Shown here one piece after another: positions 54,472 to 62,616 of a stretch of 64,000 bases of DNA. Within the stretch, counting starts at the first letter, position 1, and every line of letters starts with the position of its first letter. This DNA comes from Magnetococcales bacterium. GTDB lineage: Bacteria > Pseudomonadota > Magnetococcia > Magnetococcales > Magnetaquicoccaceae. The DNA lies in NCBI GenBank assembly GCA_011089965.1, contig JAANAU010000002.1:104682-168681 (forward strand). Reading direction: 5' to 3'. The translations under genes and the position numbers were made by a program. The notes under the pieces are model-generated. The model did no database searches and was not told the origin of the DNA. It saw only the letters and a list, made by a program, of their open reading frames with translations.

Positions 54472-55329
54472 ATGACTGACCAGGACACCCCCTCGCCCGA
54501 TACCCCCCCTGCCCCAACGCATACTCCAGACCCGATCTCCTTTGAAGAGTTGATTCGGGGTCGTGAAGCAGAAATCGCCAAACTGCTGCGCGAACAGGAT
54601 TACCTCAATGTCCTCACCCCGTTGCAGCAGGAGTTGGTCAAACTGCAACAGTGGGTGATCACAAATAAACGTAAAATCCTGGTCATCTTTGAAGGACGCG
54701 ATGCAGCAGGCAAGGGGGGAACCATCAAACGGTTTACCGAATTCTTAAGCCCACGCATCTGCCGCGTCGTAGCCTTGGAAAAACCCACCGACATCGAAAA
54801 AACGCAGTGGTATTTCCAACGCTATCTCACCCATCTGCCCCATGGGGGTGAGATCGTCTTCTTTGACCGCAGCTGGTACAACCGTCCGGGTGTGGAACGG
54901 GTCATGGGCTTCTGCACTCCGGAACAGGTGGAAGAGTTCCACCGTCAACTCCCCTGTATCGAACGCATGCTGACCGAATCCGGCATGCATCTGATCAAAT
55001 TCTGGTTCTCGGTGGAACGGACTTCCCAGGAAAAACGGTTCGCCTCCCGGGAAACCGACCCTCTGAAGGTCTGGAAACTCAGCCCCGTGGATCAGGAAGC
55101 CCTGGATCACTGGGATCACTACTCCTTGGCCCGCGACGACATGCTGCGCCTGACCAACTTCCCGGAAGCGCCCTGGACCGTGATCCGCTCCGACAGCAAA
55201 AAATTGGCACGTATCAACAGCATCCGCTATTTACTCAACCGGTTTGATTACGACCACAAGGATCCATCCCTGCTCACTCTGGATCCCGGCATCGTATTGA
55301 CCGTGGACGACGAAATCGGACGTCCGTAA
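54472..55329 (+). CDS. ppk2: Polyphosphate kinase 2
   Basis: 285 residues. The PPK2 signature is complete: Walker A FEGRDAAGKGGTIKRF, the lid FDRSWYNRPGVERVMGF, FWFSVERTSQEKRFASR, and WDHYSLARDDML. PPK2 uses polyphosphate to phosphorylate NDPs (or the reverse). GGAG lies 8 nt before the ATG. About 20 residues of Pro/Thr-rich N-terminus precede the domain. It is upstream of the NTase-kinase fusion, separated by the repeat. Confidence 0.95.
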   Translation: MTDQDTPSPDTPPAPTHTPDPISFEELIRGREAEIAKLLREQDYLNVLTPLQQELVKLQQWVITNKRKILVIFEGRDAAGKGGTIKRFTEFLSPRICRVVALEKPTDIEKTQWYFQRYLTHLPHGGEIVFFDRSWYNRPGVERVMGFCTPEQVEEFHRQLPCIERMLTESGMHLIKFWFSVERTSQEKRFASRETDPLKVWKLSPVDQEALDHWDHYSLARDDMLRLTNFPEAPWTVIRSDSKKLARINSIRYLLNRFDYDHKDPSLLTLDPGIVLTVDDEIGRP

Positions 55330-55506: not shown

Positions 55507-57942
55507 ATGGGCGTTATCAAAAAAGTATTGTATCGCGGTCAATTGCTCGGCAAACCGCGCCATCGTCACCTCTTTCTCGACATGGAAGAGAACATCCATA
55601 TCCACTACCGGGATCTGCGCATCGAAATGAGTCGGGCAGAATTCGAAGAATTCAGCGAAATCTTCCGCCGTCAATCCACGGAACTCCAAACCATCATCCA
55701 TGAAAAAAATTATCAAGACGGCAAACTGGCCAATGCCAACCAGGAGGATGTACGCATCTGGACCGAGTCGCAACTGAAAAACGATGTCGCCTATCACCCG
55801 CGACGGGTCTCCATCGAAGCATGCAGCGATGGCTATCATCTCCATTTACGCAACTACAAATTCCTGCTCGATGAAGAGGATTTTCGTCAACTGCTGCGTC
55901 AGATGCAACGCATGGATCCCGACATTCCCCATGCTGCCACCTTCTCCGAAGTGTTGGAACTGCTGGAAGCCAATGAACTGGATTTCTTCCTGGAATCAGG
56001 CAATGCCCCAGCTGCCACCATGATGTTGCGCGTGGCAGCCCACCATCTGCCCAAGGTACGCGATATCTTCAAACTGATCGGCTTCACCCAGGAGAACACT
56101 CCGGAAGGCGTTCGCTACACCGGTGCCAAACTCACGGTCCTGGTGCAAGGAGAAAAAAAAGAGTCCAGCCTCGACTTTCGCGCCCTGCGCGGACTTCAGG
56201 AGACCATGCGACTGGTGGAATTCTTGAGCCATGCCGGACCCGGCATGGAGGCCAATCTGTTGAATCGCATCAAGTGTCAGGTTCTCGATCTCTATTATGC
56301 TCTGGCTGCCAGAGAGTCGACCCATGTCGAATGCGACCCCCAGTTCTGGCTCTACTCTGTCAGTGCAGGACGGGTGATCTTTCCACACACCCCACGCTCC
56401 GTGGGTCCGGATGCTGCCAAAACCCTGTACCGGGCATGGAGCCATCTGTTGAACCGTCTGGAGTTGTCCTTCATAAAACCCACCAAGATCCCGTTATCCC
56501 CCACCGAACAAACCGCCCTGCGCACCCGCATCGACGCCACCTTGCAACGGGAACTCTGGACCCAACCGGCTGTGGAACGGATCCATCTGATGGGTTCCGC
56601 CCTGCGCGCAGAAATGGGATTCTACCTGGCCCCGTTTGTCCATGGCCCCAATGCCAAACTCGGCTCAGACGTGGATATCCTGATAGAAATCCATCCGGAA
56701 CGGGAAGCTGAACTGCCCGCCACCTGGCATCTGATCAATCCGGAGTCCGCTGCCAGCGGGTGTGCCGTCTATCACATCACGCAACTCCCCCTGGCCCTGG
56801 ATACCCACTCCTGGAGTCAACTCCACCCGCATATACCGTTCATGCATCATCTGATCGATGCCTATGTCTATTTTCCCTCCCGAGGTAACCGCGCAGCCAA
56901 GGATGCCTTCTTGAAAAAATTCGGTGCCCGGGTGGTCTATGATCGACACAAGGATGGCGCACCCATTGGTTCCGGAGAACTGGCCGAACTGACCCGCCAG
57001 GTGCGCTCCTGTTATACCCTGCCAGACGCCCTGTTGGAACCTTTGAAAGTCTCCACGGAAAATCTGCTCTACAAACTCTTTCACTCTGGCGGAGATGGCA
57101 TTCTCAAGCTTTTCAAGGTGGCGGGCAACTATCATGGCACACGGATCGCAGAACATACAGCCTATGAAAACACTTTGATTCAGGAACTGGTGGCCCGTGG
57201 CGTACCCACTGCGCGCATCTTCCCGGCGCAGACCGACCACCCGCCCACGCTTCTGGGTTTTCCGGCACTCTTGTTTGAACGCCTGCCCGGCACACCCCAA
57301 TCCAAACCCGAATATCCACTGGCAGCCATTGGGTCAGCCTTGGCCCATCTGCATCAAGTGCAGATCAACGCCCCCATGGATCTTGCCACCGCCTTTACCT
57401 TTGAGGAGTCCTGCCTCATCTGGCTCCCCTATTTCGCCACCTACCAGAACCATCCCAATCTCCCGGAACCACTCAAACCAGCCTTTGCCGATCTGGCCAC
57501 ACGGATCGAGCCGTTTCTGGACCCCTCCTTCCGCTCCAGCCTGTATGCCGACTGCCATCTGGTCCACAATCATGGCGATGTCACCCCGAAAAATGTCATC
57601 CTGACTCCTGACGGCCTGGCCCATTTTTTTGATTTCAATAATTGCTATCACGGCCCCAGACTGTTGGATCTGATCGATGGTGGATTTGAATTCTCGCTGG
57701 CAGACAAATACATTCAACTGGCAGACTTCACCCGCTTTGACACCCTGCTGGCCCACTACTCGGCCAACTCCCCGCTGAATGCCGCCGAGACCAAAACCTT
57801 GCCGCAATGGATCCACCTTCTTGGAACCATAAAATTCATTAAAGAGGTGCGCGTGTTGCTGGAGCGCCCCCACGAAGCGTTGCGACGCCAACGCGCGCTG
57901 GCCATTGCCGAATTTTTGGCCAAACGTCCACCATCCCCATGA
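55507..57942 (+). CDS. Nucleotidyltransferase fused to an aminoglycoside-phosphotransferase-like kinase
   Basis: 811 residues. Residues 1-140 hold two related short blocks (IHIHYRDLRIEMSRAEFEEF near 30-49 and YHLHLRNYKFLLDEEDFRQL near 109-128). Residues about 355-490 are a nucleotidyltransferase with GSALRAEMG and GSDVDILIEI. Residues about 520-800 are an APH/choline-kinase-like domain: VHNHGDVTPKNVIL (HGDxxxxN) and HFFDFNN (DFG-like Asp). No characterised homologue comes to mind. Preceding the ATG is AGAGGTG. The stop overlaps the metalloprotease ATG (ATGA). Confidence 0.85.
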   Translation: MGVIKKVLYRGQLLGKPRHRHLFLDMEENIHIHYRDLRIEMSRAEFEEFSEIFRRQSTELQTIIHEKNYQDGKLANANQEDVRIWTESQLKNDVAYHPRRVSIEACSDGYHLHLRNYKFLLDEEDFRQLLRQMQRMDPDIPHAATFSEVLELLEANELDFFLESGNAPAATMMLRVAAHHLPKVRDIFKLIGFTQENTPEGVRYTGAKLTVLVQGEKKESSLDFRALRGLQETMRLVEFLSHAGPGMEANLLNRIKCQVLDLYYALAARESTHVECDPQFWLYSVSAGRVIFPHTPRSVGPDAAKTLYRAWSHLLNRLELSFIKPTKIPLSPTEQTALRTRIDATLQRELWTQPAVERIHLMGSALRAEMGFYLAPFVHGPNAKLGSDVDILIEIHPEREAELPATWHLINPESAASGCAVYHITQLPLALDTHSWSQLHPHIPFMHHLIDAYVYFPSRGNRAAKDAFLKKFGARVVYDRHKDGAPIGSGELAELTRQVRSCYTLPDALLEPLKVSTENLLYKLFHSGGDGILKLFKVAGNYHGTRIAEHTAYENTLIQELVARGVPTARIFPAQTDHPPTLLGFPALLFERLPGTPQSKPEYPLAAIGSALAHLHQVQINAPMDLATAFTFEESCLIWLPYFATYQNHPNLPEPLKPAFADLATRIEPFLDPSFRSSLYADCHLVHNHGDVTPKNVILTPDGLAHFFDFNNCYHGPRLLDLIDGGFEFSLADKYIQLADFTRFDTLLAHYSANSPLNAAETKTLPQWIHLLGTIKFIKEVRVLLERPHEALRRQRALAIAEFLAKRPPSP

Positions 57943-59042
57943 TGACCCGGGTACGGATCGGGCTGGCCGCTCTGGTGCTTGGATCCACCCCTCTGCACGC
58001 CATGCCCGTTGACACCCGTATCGGCATTCGATTCGTCGTGGATCATGCCCTGGAGAACCACACAGCAAAACAATCCTCCATCCAGACACAACTGTCCGAA
58101 CATGTCCACACTTTGAATCGCTTCTTGCGTGAAAGCGCAGTCTGGATACAGGCCGACATCGTCCACATTGACTTCCGTCACATCCAGAGTGTAGAGGCTG
58201 TGGAGATTCTCAACGATATGCGCGCCGAGCGTCATGGATTTGAGGGGTTGTTCCACCATGCTGACCGCTGGGGGGCTGATGTCACGGTGGCCGTGGTCAA
58301 GAAACTCACCCTGCGCGGACAACCCGGTTGTGGTCGTGCCTGGGCGGTCAACAAAACGCTCTCTGCCCTCGCAACCACGGCCAACAGCCTGATGGTCTAT
58401 CATCCCATCTGCGGAGCACACACCCTGGCCCATGAACTGGGCCACCTCATGGGGTTGAACCATGGCCATCTGGTGGATCGCTGCCAGCCCAACCAGGGCC
58501 ATGCCTCAGCCATCACCCGCTATGCCAACGGCTTTGCCGTGGGCAACTGCGATGGTCAACCCCAACCCGGCGAATTCGGTACGATCATGGTGGGAGGCTG
58601 GATGAAACAGATCATGGGGAACGACAAAGCCAGCCTGCCCCTCTTTTCCAACCCGCGCTTGCAGGATGCCCGCTGCGGTCTCTCCGGTATCTGCGGTGAC
58701 CCCGAATACAGCGATGAAGCCCGCGCCCTGAATGAACACGCCCGCCACTTTGCAGGACATGAAGAGCCGGATGTGGATACCTTGCCATTTCCGGATCCAG
58801 GTGTGCGCCAGTGCATTCGAGAGCAATACCAGGGCGTGGAAATTGACACGTTGCAACAACTGCATTGCCCGGATCGCGGCATCCTCGATCTGACCGGTGT
58901 GGAACGTCTGACGGCACTGCACCATCTGGATCTGTCCGGCAACAATCCCATCCCCTGCGCTGCACTCACACAACACATGCAAACTCTCGATTCCGTGAAA
59001 CTCGTCGCTCCGAACCACTGTTTACCTGTCATGCCAAAGTGA
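57939..59042 (+). CDS. Secreted zinc metalloprotease, metzincin type
   Basis: 367 residues with a signal peptide ending PLHA. The extended zinc motif HELGHLMGLNH near residue 170 matches HExxHxxGxxH of metzincins, and MVGG in GTIMVGGW may be the Met-turn. Cysteine pairs suggest disulfides. The last 60 residues (GVERLTALHHLDLSGNNPI) look like one or two leucine-rich repeats. The GTIMVGG region resembles that in M12/M43-like secreted peptidases. It is translationally coupled to the NTase-kinase gene. Confidence 0.85.
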   Translation: MMTRVRIGLAALVLGSTPLHAMPVDTRIGIRFVVDHALENHTAKQSSIQTQLSEHVHTLNRFLRESAVWIQADIVHIDFRHIQSVEAVEILNDMRAERHGFEGLFHHADRWGADVTVAVVKKLTLRGQPGCGRAWAVNKTLSALATTANSLMVYHPICGAHTLAHELGHLMGLNHGHLVDRCQPNQGHASAITRYANGFAVGNCDGQPQPGEFGTIMVGGWMKQIMGNDKASLPLFSNPRLQDARCGLSGICGDPEYSDEARALNEHARHFAGHEEPDVDTLPFPDPGVRQCIREQYQGVEIDTLQQLHCPDRGILDLTGVERLTALHHLDLSGNNPIPCAALTQHMQTLDSVKLVAPNHCLPVMPK

Positions 59043-59072: not shown

Positions 59073-59196
59073 TTGCAATCAATATTTAATGCGAGTTAAA
59101 TGCGATTCCGCTTCCGGGATCGCTCCGGAAGCAGATGCAGAGGTCGCGGAACTGGATCCGTCTGACGATTGATGAACTGCCACCGGAAGATTGCGT

Positions 59197-60813
59197 ATGT
59201 CCAGATTGATCTATCTGTTGATTCTGTTGTTTCTGTGGAATCCCGCCTGGTCCCATGCGGCTCCGACTGCACAAACCGGAACGCCCCAGAACAAGAAATC
59301 CACACAAAAATGGAATCAAAATTCCACAAACAACAACGCCAAACCTGCCAATCGGGGTATCAAAACCGCTCAGGGAAACAATAAAAAACTGACCGGAAAA
59401 CCAAGGCGCGCCCACCGCCCGCCAGGAGCCAACCAGACCGCAGCCCTCCCCCAAACTCCCAGACCGTTGGATGAAAGCTCGCGCATCGGCTATCTGCTGA
59501 TGGATATGCAATCCGGCGCAATCCTGGAGACCCAACACGATACCGAGCCGTTCATTCCCGCATCCGTGGCCAAGGTGCCATCAACGTTGGCGGCACTGCA
59601 TATTCTGGGTCCGGATCACCGTTTCGTCACCTCCTTGCAAAGCGCAGCGCCTGTCGTCAATGGCGTGGTGCAAGGGGATCTGATCCTGGTGGGCGGTGGC
59701 GATCCCTCCTTCAACATGGCTGGATTGACAGAGCTGGCCCATCAGTTGCGCAACCGTGGCATTCATCGCATTGCCGGACGTTTTCTCTTTGATGAGTCCG
59801 CCCTGGTTCCGCAAGCCAGTATCAGCCAGGAACAAAACGACGAAGAGACCTATAATTCCGGACTCAGCGCCCTGACCCTGGATCCCAGCCGGATCCGGAT
59901 GCGCTGGATGATCGACCGTCAAGGTCGCCTGCTGACCCAGACCACTCCCAATCTCAATCATATTTCCTATGTATTGGGACCAGCCTCGACCAAAGGGCCG
60001 TCCCTGATTTTTCTCGGTGGGGATCGCAAGGAACAGTGGCAACTCAATCCACGCAATGCCCGCTCTGGTTGGGACTGGGTGCCCATCAAAAAACCCGGAC
60101 GCTTAAGCGCCCTGGCCTTGCAAGAGTTCAGTCATCAGCTTGGCATCACCTTGCCAGAACCCGAACCCGGAGCGGCCCCGGCCCATGCCACGCTCCTGGC
60201 CAGCCACTCCAGTGCCCCGTTGCAGGAGTTGGCCCGCTATGCCCTGGAGCACAGCAACAACCTATGGACCGAAATGATCGGAGGCATGGCAGCCAGAAAG
60301 CTGTCCGGACAACCGCAAACCACGGCCAGCGCCGCCAAAATCCTCAGTGAATGGACCTTCAAACAACTGCCTCAGGTCGATTGGTCGAACTTCTATCTGG
60401 CCAACAGCAGCGGCCTCTCCTCTCAAAGCCGCATCACCCCCAGACAGATGGCCGCCATCTTGTTGCTGGCCAACTCTGTCCCCATCGGTGATCGTCCGTA
60501 TGCTGCCCTGCTCCCGGTCTCCGGCTGGAAAGGCACTCTGGCCGGGCGTTTCACCGGACCAAACTCCAAATACCGCGTGTGGGCCAAAACCGGAACCGTG
60601 CTTTACGGCAAGGCATTGGCCGGCTACCTCTACACCAAACAGAACCGCCGCCTGGTCTTTGCAATCTTTGTCAGCGATGTCGAGCAACGCAAAATCCTGG
60701 ATGCCAACAAGGGACAAAACGGCTATGGCGAACTCAACCGAGGGAAAATCTGGAACCAGCGCGCTGTGACGCATATCAATGCCCTGGTGGAGCGGTGGCT
60801 GCGCACCCACTGA
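59197..60813 (+). CDS. dacB: D-alanyl-D-alanine carboxypeptidase/endopeptidase, PBP4 type
   Basis: 538 residues from ATG 59197, with GGAAG 7 nt upstream. A signal peptide (MSRLIYLLILLFLWNPAWSHA) is followed by a 60-residue basic Asn/Lys linker. The PBP4 serine-hydrolase motifs are SVAK near 126, SNN near 352 and AKTGTV near 466, with the large insertion domain typical of S13 peptidases. It trims peptidoglycan crosslinks in the periplasm. Confidence 0.93.
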   Translation: MSRLIYLLILLFLWNPAWSHAAPTAQTGTPQNKKSTQKWNQNSTNNNAKPANRGIKTAQGNNKKLTGKPRRAHRPPGANQTAALPQTPRPLDESSRIGYLLMDMQSGAILETQHDTEPFIPASVAKVPSTLAALHILGPDHRFVTSLQSAAPVVNGVVQGDLILVGGGDPSFNMAGLTELAHQLRNRGIHRIAGRFLFDESALVPQASISQEQNDEETYNSGLSALTLDPSRIRMRWMIDRQGRLLTQTTPNLNHISYVLGPASTKGPSLIFLGGDRKEQWQLNPRNARSGWDWVPIKKPGRLSALALQEFSHQLGITLPEPEPGAAPAHATLLASHSSAPLQELARYALEHSNNLWTEMIGGMAARKLSGQPQTTASAAKILSEWTFKQLPQVDWSNFYLANSSGLSSQSRITPRQMAAILLLANSVPIGDRPYAALLPVSGWKGTLAGRFTGPNSKYRVWAKTGTVLYGKALAGYLYTKQNRRLVFAIFVSDVEQRKILDANKGQNGYGELNRGKIWNQRAVTHINALVERWLRTH

Positions 60814-60906
60814 GGATGGCCGGGATCAAACACGTGGCGTAAATCTTGCAATACCCCAGTTCAAACGTCTCACCCCACCATTCTCCACGCATCAGGGAAT
60901 CGTGAC

Positions 60907-62616
60907 ATGAATCTGGAGTATTTCGGTTTACACACATTTCCGTTCTCACCCACACCAGACACAGAGCGGTTCTTCAGTGGGGGTGGCCGTGAGGAGCTGA
61001 TTCAGGGCGCGCTCTCTGCCATTCTGGCTGGCGAGGGGTTCATCCAGGTGCTTGGGGCATCCGGTGCTGGCAAGACCATGCTGTGCCGCATGCTGTGCCA
61101 ACGTCTGCCGCACAACTTCCGCGCAGCCTTGCTGCTCAATCCCACTCTGCCGCCGGACGATCTGATCCCAGCCATCCTGAGTGAATACCGGATTCCGATC
61201 ATCCACCGGTCAGATCGACTGGCAGCGCGCCATACGCTCTTGAATCATCTGATGGCGCTGCACCGCAAGGGCGAGAGTGCCTTGCTGTTGATCGATGAGG
61301 CCCATTGCCTTCCTTTGACCACCCTGGAAGAGTTGCGCCTGCTGGGCAATCTGGAGACCGGTCATGACAAACTGCTACAGATCGTCCTGTTCGCTCAACC
61401 GCAAATGGAACGGCTGTTACAGGAGGAGAGCGCCCGTCCCCTCCAGGAACGCATGACCACCCGCATGGTTGTTGCCCCCTGGTCAGCACAGGAGACAGCA
61501 CGCTATCTTCAATTTCGTCTGCACGCTGCCGGATTCCAACCTGCACAACTCTTTACGACATCTGCCACCCGATTGCTCCATATTCTTGCTCAAGGCAGTC
61601 TGCACACGCTGCATCGTTTGGCCCACCAGGCCATGCATCAGGCCCAGCAACGTTCCTCCAGGCTGGTGACCCCCTGGCATGTCCTGCACGCCATTACCCA
61701 TGGTCAGCCCCGCATCCAACCAAAACGCGGACGTACCCTGCTGGCCACGGCTGGAATCGTGGCACTCCTGGCAGCCACTCTCCCTTGGATACCCTGGGAT
61801 GCACACCATGGTTGGACACCCTGGGATGCACAACATAGTGTGGAGCGTATACCCGCATCTCACACGCTCCCAGCTCAGACCAATACAAACACGACCGGAA
61901 TCAGGGACACCACACCAGGTACGACCGATATCAAGGTTGCCACACCAGGTACGACCGATATCAAGGTTGCCACACCCACTCCCGCAACTCTTGCCACACC
62001 GCATCCTGCGGAACAGATGACACCACGCCCCATGACGGCTGCCTCTTCAGAACCGGTCTCACCACGACCGTTGGTGAGTGCGCATGCAGAACCTGTTGCA
62101 ACGCCTCTCCCCTTGCCCAAAGAGGAACCTTCTGAAGAAGAAAAACCGATCCTCGTTCCGGATGAACTGCTGTTTCTGGCCGACGCCTCGACGACACCGC
62201 TCTCCCAAGAGGCCAAAGGATCTTCAGTCACCCCCCCAAAAACACCCTATCTCAAGACCAATGACCCGCTGGCCGAGATCATTCGCGCCTCCCACCGTTG
62301 GCTGGATCAGGGACCAGAGAACCATTTCACGATTCAATTGATTCTGTTGCGCCAGGAAAAAGGATTGGAGACTTTGATCAACCAATTGGCCGCCGTGCAA
62401 CCTCCCTTGGGAAGGACCGATCTCAAGGTGTTTCGCCTCAAGGATGACGCTTTGCTGGTCTACTTGAACGAATGCTCCTCCCTGGTTGAGTGTGAAGCAC
62501 TGAAGAATCGCCTGCCAGTGGCCTTGCGTTCCAACAACCCCAGTGTACGCTCCCTGGCCAGACTCAAGACCACGGTCCGCAAACTGGCTCTGGCCACTGC
62601 GGATCGTACCGGTTGA
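60907..62616 (+). CDS. ExeA/GspA-like AAA ATPase with membrane helix and periplasmic tail
   Basis: 569 residues. N-terminal ExeA-type start MNLEYFGLHTFPFSPTPDTERFF, Walker A GASGAGKTML, Walker B LLLIDEAHCL, then a membrane helix near 280-300 (LLATAGIVALLAATLPW). A Pro/Thr-rich linker contains a repeated TPGTTDIKVA. The C-terminal region has SPOR-like features (FTIQLILLRQEKGLETLINQLA). ExeA proteins help assemble type II secretion or pilus outer-membrane rings through peptidoglycan binding. The next gene encodes a GspE-like ATPase, which supports that role. Confidence 0.9.
   Translation: MNLEYFGLHTFPFSPTPDTERFFSGGGREELIQGALSAILAGEGFIQVLGASGAGKTMLCRMLCQRLPHNFRAALLLNPTLPPDDLIPAILSEYRIPIIHRSDRLAARHTLLNHLMALHRKGESALLLIDEAHCLPLTTLEELRLLGNLETGHDKLLQIVLFAQPQMERLLQEESARPLQERMTTRMVVAPWSAQETARYLQFRLHAAGFQPAQLFTTSATRLLHILAQGSLHTLHRLAHQAMHQAQQRSSRLVTPWHVLHAITHGQPRIQPKRGRTLLATAGIVALLAATLPWIPWDAHHGWTPWDAQHSVERIPASHTLPAQTNTNTTGIRDTTPGTTDIKVATPGTTDIKVATPTPATLATPHPAEQMTPRPMTAASSEPVSPRPLVSAHAEPVATPLPLPKEEPSEEEKPILVPDELLFLADASTTPLSQEAKGSSVTPPKTPYLKTNDPLAEIIRASHRWLDQGPENHFTIQLILLRQEKGLETLINQLAAVQPPLGRTDLKVFRLKDDALLVYLNECSSLVECEALKNRLPVALRSNNPSVRSLARLKTTVRKLALATADRTG
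61911..61970. repeat. 30-bp perfect tandem repeat, two copies
   Basis: Two identical 30-bp units (61911-61940 and 61941-61970) lie in the linker of the ExeA-like gene and encode TPGTTDIKVA twice. A second, imperfect repeat lies at about 61786-61834 (ACCCTGGGATGCACA occurs twice). Confidence 0.9.

Follow-up and report, generated by a model that had tools for sequence, protein, structure and literature searches.

The core gene of the window (i.e., the whole 64,000-nucleotide stretch of Magnetococcales DNA analyzed here) encodes a kinase-nucleotidyltransferase fusion, which is a conserved family that is apparently new to the literature. Most likely, the core protein modifies an exported protein or makes an activated group for it, by a chemistry that we infer, while the metzincin protease encoded next to it acts outside the cell. 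The features of the core gene and of the two genes that adjoin it are as follows.

54472..55329, + strand: polyphosphate kinase 2 (ppk2; TIGR03707, 1.4e-105), which adjoins the core gene in Magnetococcales only
55507..57942, + strand: core gene, kinase-nucleotidyltransferase of 811 aa (open reading frame call and full-length family)
55573..55671, + strand: first ENIHIHYR block, residues 23-55 (internal repeat, E 4.9e-9; ENIHIH invariant)
55801..55917, + strand: second block, residues 99-137 (DGYHLHLRNYKFLLDEEDF; internal repeat, with the same two-block layout in viral proteins)
55936..56199, + strand: predicted degenerate nucleotidyltransferase-like fold without GS or DxD, residues 144-231 (fold match to ANT(2'')-Ia)
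56488..56958, + strand: Pol-beta-type nucleotidyltransferase, residues 328-484 (G363 S364, D388, D390, D451)
56968..57939, + strand: APH-type kinase, residues 488-811 (K534, H689 G690 D691, N696, D709)
57939..59042, + strand: exported metzincin protease (HELGHLMGLNH; Pfam Reprolysin_5, 2.7e-7), overlapping the core stop codon by ATGA

The core protein and its family

The open reading frame at 55507-57942 of the forward strand is real and encodes 811 residues. From the N- to the C-terminus, the protein consists of a double ENIHIHYR block, a degenerate nucleotidyltransferase-like domain, a Pol-beta-type nucleotidyltransferase and an APH kinase. The structure models had a mean pLDDT of 84.5 for the whole chain and 89.9 for residues 136-488, and residues 1-135 were poorly modeled.

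The kinase domain matched Pfam APH over residues 527-724 (E 3.9e-17; 63.3 bits against a cut-off of 23.2). Its catalytic residues (i.e., Lys, HGD and Asp) are found in all 43 aligned family members and N696 in 42 of them. By fold, the kinase model is nearest to the homoserine kinase 2ppq (Z 27.0), followed by N-acetylhexosamine 1-kinase (Z 24.9) and choline kinases (Z about 22), and it has the fold and the catalytic Lys, HGD...N and Asp in common with these ThrB/APH-fold kinases (2ppq, NahK and choline kinase). The NCBIfam homoserine kinase model matched at 2.2e-8, with 33.5 bits against a cut-off of 271, which does not place the core protein in that family. Unlike ThrB, the core kinase is fused to 487 further residues and lies in a gene context unlike that of threonine synthesis.

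Motif, profile and predicted fold all assign residues 328-484 to the Pol-beta-type nucleotidyltransferase superfamily, and the domain looks active. G363 S364 and D388 D390 (i.e., GS and DxD) are present in 43 of 43 sequences, while the third carboxylate, D451, on a strand predicted at residues 448-455, is D in 40 and E in 3 of the 43. NTP_transf_2 matched this region in 35 of the 43 family members (best 7.4e-5); Pfam searched with the window protein alone gave no nucleotidyltransferase match. The model fits the ANT(4')/LinB/poly(A) polymerase folds, with a modest Z of 8.3 against ANT(4')-IIb, and GS, DxD, the third carboxylate and the fold are shared with the NTP_transf_2 enzymes ANT(4'), ANT(6) and LinB. 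The core differs from these enzymes in that the Ser of GS and the first Asp of DxD lie 24 residues apart, with a strongly conserved insertion (Y373, P376, F377 and K384 are invariant), and in that its nucleotidyltransferase is preceded by a degenerate nucleotidyltransferase-like domain. As modeled, this preceding domain (residues 144-231), which was absent from the sequence-only reading, is a further nucleotidyltransferase-like fold without catalytic residues: it matched ANT(2'')-Ia over 85 residues at 2.7 A with a modest Z of 8.4 (VIA-align), and the family alignment contains no conserved carboxylate pair within it.

Apart from one Asn-to-Ser and three Asp-to-Glu replacements, the catalytic residues of both domains are unchanged across the 43 aligned members, and the two sites are intact in every one. 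The earlier description of a nucleotidyltransferase and an APH-like kinase joined in a single chain, with the catalytic residues of both kept, is borne out across the 43 sequences, and loss of DxD or HGD, which had been named beforehand as grounds for refuting it, was not found, as 43 of 43 keep both.

The pairing of these two activities also suits a second-ranked and possible explanation, in which the core protein turns X into phospho-X and then into nucleotide-linked X, a soluble activated donor, and never touches an exoprotein. X would be an amino alcohol or a sugar, and other enzymes would decorate the surface, like LicA plus LicC. The best fits of the kinase, to small-molecule kinases, are in favor of it, as is the NCBIfam homoserine kinase match, though this is far under its cut-off. 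A kinase plus a nucleotidyltransferase is, moreover, the usual logic for such donors, and in the Lic-1 pathway the two yield an activated donor (PMC10434233). Lic-1 (i.e., the LicA kinase, LicC and LicD) likewise has a kinase and a nucleotidyl step that feed surface decoration, but the core is one chain in a different gene context, and no LicB or LicC homologues were seen among the clustered neighbor genes of the core. Against donor synthesis, known donor-making nucleotidyltransferases mostly have a GT-A-like fold and not a Pol-beta one. Nor did the neighborhoods give a conserved transferase partner, the partners being an exported protease and, in loci outside Magnetococcales, an exporter and a repeat protein.

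The two halves of the N-terminal block matched each other, profile against profile, at E 4.9e-9, and none of 31 control windows did better than 1e-3. The duplication in what had been called a novel N-terminal double block is thus real; its uniqueness is not, as viral proteins also carry the block. The viral scan found it in 17 loci, some of them from one virus. The viral proteins have the double block as in the core, alone or (often) with a ParB-like domain, but without the kinase or nucleotidyltransferase. In many of the 17 loci, the block occurs in a module alongside genes for a capsid protein, a GT9-type glycosyltransferase and a methyltransferase, possibly a virion-modification cassette, and this gene context fits a surface-protein-modifying role for the N-terminal block. 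The module of capsid, GT9-type glycosyltransferase, methyltransferase and ENIHIHYR genes recurs in the viral contigs L144, L145 and L147-L151, where the ENIHIHYR proteins mostly have the ParB-like domain. A Pfam scan of 59 viral-module proteins found DUF6686 in six (best 4.7e-5), which are probably the block-bearing proteins, the matches being unnamed in the scan table. DUF6686 matched the window protein at 0.14, a phage search with the N-terminal block gave no match, and one viral protein had a LicD-like structural match (E 1.8e-3).

The earlier reading had suggested an undescribed modifying system, and no named full-length homologue was found. Literature searches nowhere found the fusion described. 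Searches of PDB sequences and of PHROGs with the core protein gave no matches, PADLOC models gave none at E 1 for the core, ppk2 or the metzincin, and the plasmid search gave matches to the kinase domain only. Among 398 sampled genomes, the middle plus nucleotidyltransferase part was found in no other architecture.

The core family is kept in more than 40 genomes. The scan of species genomes gave 43 loci, 8 from Magnetococcales and 35 from others (L060 being from Hydrogenedentota), and with the window included 44 loci were studied (9 from Magnetococcales and 35 others). A full-length core, 58-73% identical to that of the window, is present in 10 of the 11 genomes of the window's Magnetococcales genus; the one assembly that has none is 57% complete. 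The other searched genomes of the order had no full-length core and gave weak kinase-domain matches only. Outside Magnetococcales the distribution is patchy, and the hosts include Gallionella, Sulfuricella, Methylobacter, Desulfonatronum, Thiohalocapsa and Oceanospirillum. In the tree, the Magnetococcales cores cluster, and elsewhere bacterial families intermix (e.g., a Geobacter assembly next to a Gallionellaceae one), a pattern that points to horizontal transfer or to errors in binning. The interpretation of the split core at L059 as separate genes was dropped, as the break falls at a run of A, which suggests a frameshift.

A stand-alone enzyme for drug or toxin modification, defense or a toxin-antitoxin function would agree with this patchiness and with the antibiotic-modifying enzymes that both catalytic superfamilies include. 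The lack of a PADLOC match, the strongly conserved N-terminus, the secretion-linked context and the presence in 10 of 11 genus members argue against such an enzyme, which we regard as very unlikely.

The adjoining metzincin and ppk2 genes

The ATGA coupling between the core and the metalloprotease gene, noted in the sequence-only reading, lies at 57939-57942, and the neighborhood survey found the association kept across the family. Of the 40 loci whose sequence continues for 400 bp or more beyond the core, 25 have the metzincin adjoining it, including a split copy (L038), a degenerate copy (L043) and a copy on the opposite strand (L048). HExxHxxGxxH is found in 20 of 22 metzincin copies, the other two being truncated. 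Within Magnetococcales, all 10 core-bearing genomes have the metzincin, vs. 1 of the 36 that lack the core, although these genomes share ancestry and are not independent. Judged by its neighborhoods, the metzincin is a conserved partner of the core. A metzincin relative (54%) is encoded at G026:C111:74805-75551, in a Magnetococcales genome that yielded no core gene.

The window metzincin has an apparent Sec signal. A metzincin domain and a Sec signal are likewise found in Mep72 of Pseudomonas aeruginosa biofilms (PMC4334185), but the partner of Mep72 is BamI and that of the window metzincin is the kinase-nucleotidyltransferase. The NCBIfam Mep72 model matched at 4.9e-14, with 51.8 bits against a cut-off of 645, which leaves the window protease outside that family. 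After the metzincin, genes for a D-Ala-D-Ala carboxypeptidase and an AAA/SPOR-domain ATPase occupy positions 59191-62616 of the window, and the same order is found in L019 and L022.

On the other side of the core, ppk2 is found upstream in 8 of the 9 Magnetococcales loci and as a fragment in the ninth (L023), which is the evidence for a polyphosphate-linked modifying system that includes ppk2, as the sequence-only reading suggested. Upstream of the core in the 35 loci outside Magnetococcales, ppk2 was never found, and in the window a gap of 177 bp separates its end from the core start. A role for ppk2 as a system component is unsupported by these neighborhoods, and we give a polyphosphate-linked system the lowest probability of all the explanations weighed here. 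The gene was rejected as a family-wide partner on the count of 0 of 35 and is probably outside the system.

Type I secretion genes and repeat exoproteins

Outside Magnetococcales, the core is linked to type I secretion system (T1SS) genes and repeat exoproteins. A repeat exoprotein is encoded within about 10 kb of the core in 17 of the 35 loci and an HlyD and/or T1SS ABC gene near it in 12, so that 21 have one or both; the link was not seen in Magnetococcales. This linkage, absent from the earlier reading, would supply a candidate target. With 23 matches in 33 Mb, an HlyD gene of any kind would be expected by chance within 10 kb about 1.4% of the time. In each of 10 non-Magnetococcales genomes with the core, there is one close HlyD orthologue (46-100% identity; in pieces in one genome), and the remaining HlyD matches in these genomes are at 33% or less. 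A T1SS near L026, whose HlyD is 33% identical to the linked subfamily, was left uncounted.

The gene order in L028, L030 and L034 is TolC, LuxR-type regulator, ABC transporter, HlyD and core, then the repeat protein. In L040, L043, L053, L057 and L059, HlyD and the core flank the gene for the repeat protein, and in L051, which is from Oceanospirillum multiglobuliferum ATCC 33336, the core is first in the T1SS gene order. L044 has HlyD only, at which its contig ends. Three further loci have a TolC homologue, two of them with LapG and LapD-type genes. In L039 and L052, the core stands beside TolC, LapG-like and LapD-type genes and genes for huge ATP-grasp/Mur-ligase proteins (up to 2256 aa).

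In the 17 loci, the exoproteins have a conserved N-terminus in 8; the rest have, or some have as well, an RTX-like C-terminus ending in IDKIEW or similar. Their repeats include APVSTT, TTP, NPTTPV and APHTST, and Ser plus Thr make up 27-45% of the Pro-rich ones. The exoproteins of L025, L027 and L045 have acidic DS or DK repeats and are not Ser/Thr/Pro-rich; the one that adjoins the core in L025 (L025:1-819) has long DSDSDS repeats and is dentin phosphoprotein-like. The deepest relatives (L055, L056 and L060) have no T1SS or exoprotein neighbors, and their contigs are short. Several loci without the link begin within 700 bp of the core, and such contig starts perhaps reflect assemblies breaking in repeats.

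Mur-ligase, PGA_cap or ATP-grasp genes for polymer synthesis near the core in L025, L029, L031, L039 and L052 would agree with a core that serves an extracellular polymer (i.e., a poly-amino-acid or a capsule) instead of an exoprotein. This is unlikely, given that these are 5 of the 44 loci and that three of them (L025, L029 and L031) also carry an exoprotein. A cytoplasmic enzyme encoded with the genes for an exporter and its substrate, as the core would be outside Magnetococcales, is also found among T1SS substrate modifiers in HlyC and the RTX toxins; HlyC is an acyltransferase, and no sequence relation to the core is suggested.

In Magnetococcales, no T1SS was seen beside the core, and the search for the linked HlyD turned up no close orthologue, the best matches being at 36-39% and occurring also in genera without the core. 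The genomes of the window's genus have many HlyD genes, none of them above 36-39% identity to the linked subfamily. At the end of contig C70 (L100:7465-8148, minus strand), the window's genome encodes an exoprotein that combines APSSTTQ repeats with the shared C-terminus and that has close relatives (69-81%) in three further genomes of the genus. The exoprotein N-terminal region was sought in the window's genome and not found. Magnetococcales genera without the core also encode low-complexity exoproteins with a related C-terminus, so this tail is a general T1SS feature. Since no T1SS lies beside the core and the tail occurs without the core, the substrate in the window's own organism, where the exporter link is unseen, is a guess based on the family at large. 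The window's genome also has an open-ended repeat protein of 1682 aa with an RTX-like C-terminus (L102:2-5050), a probable T1SS adhesin.

Proposed function of the core protein

As the likeliest function, we tentatively propose that the core protein is a cytoplasmic two-step modifier of the exported repeat protein. The N-terminal double block, perhaps with the degenerate nucleotidyltransferase-like domain, would recognize the acceptor. The APH kinase would phosphorylate a hydroxyl, either of Ser/Thr in the exoprotein repeats or of a small carrier group, and the nucleotidyltransferase would next add a nucleotide or hand on the activated phospho-group. The modified protein would exit via the T1SS, and the exported metzincin may then trim or free it outside the cell. 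In this scheme we infer the exoprotein as the acceptor, the step order, the group added and the roles of the N-terminal block and the protease.

We counted in favor of an exoprotein modifier the intact active sites, the T1SS/exoprotein linkage, the metzincin partnership, the viral modules and the C70 repeat protein. Counted against it were the lack of a T1SS beside the Magnetococcales core and of a close HlyD orthologue there, the low-complexity exoproteins that have the C-terminus in Magnetococcales lacking the core, the acidic exoproteins, the bare surroundings of the deepest relatives and the small-molecule-like kinase fold. More specifically, a new system in which the single-chain enzyme puts a phosphate- or nucleotide-linked group on the Ser/Thr-rich, mucin-like repeats of T1SS matrix proteins, with a dedicated metzincin, is a doubtful though conceivable extension. 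To our knowledge, such protein decoration by a kinase and a nucleotidyltransferase has no described precedent.

The exoprotein-modifier reading names a candidate substrate for mass spectrometry. If true, it would mean that the mucin-like repeat proteins secreted by bacteria have a dedicated enzyme for their decoration, which works by kinase plus nucleotidyltransferase chemistry, and it would assign a function to the N-terminal block that the core has in common with viral modules resembling surface-modification modules. It would also explain why, in iron-oxidizing, methane-oxidizing and magnetotactic groups, a cytoplasmic enzyme is so consistently paired with an exported protease.
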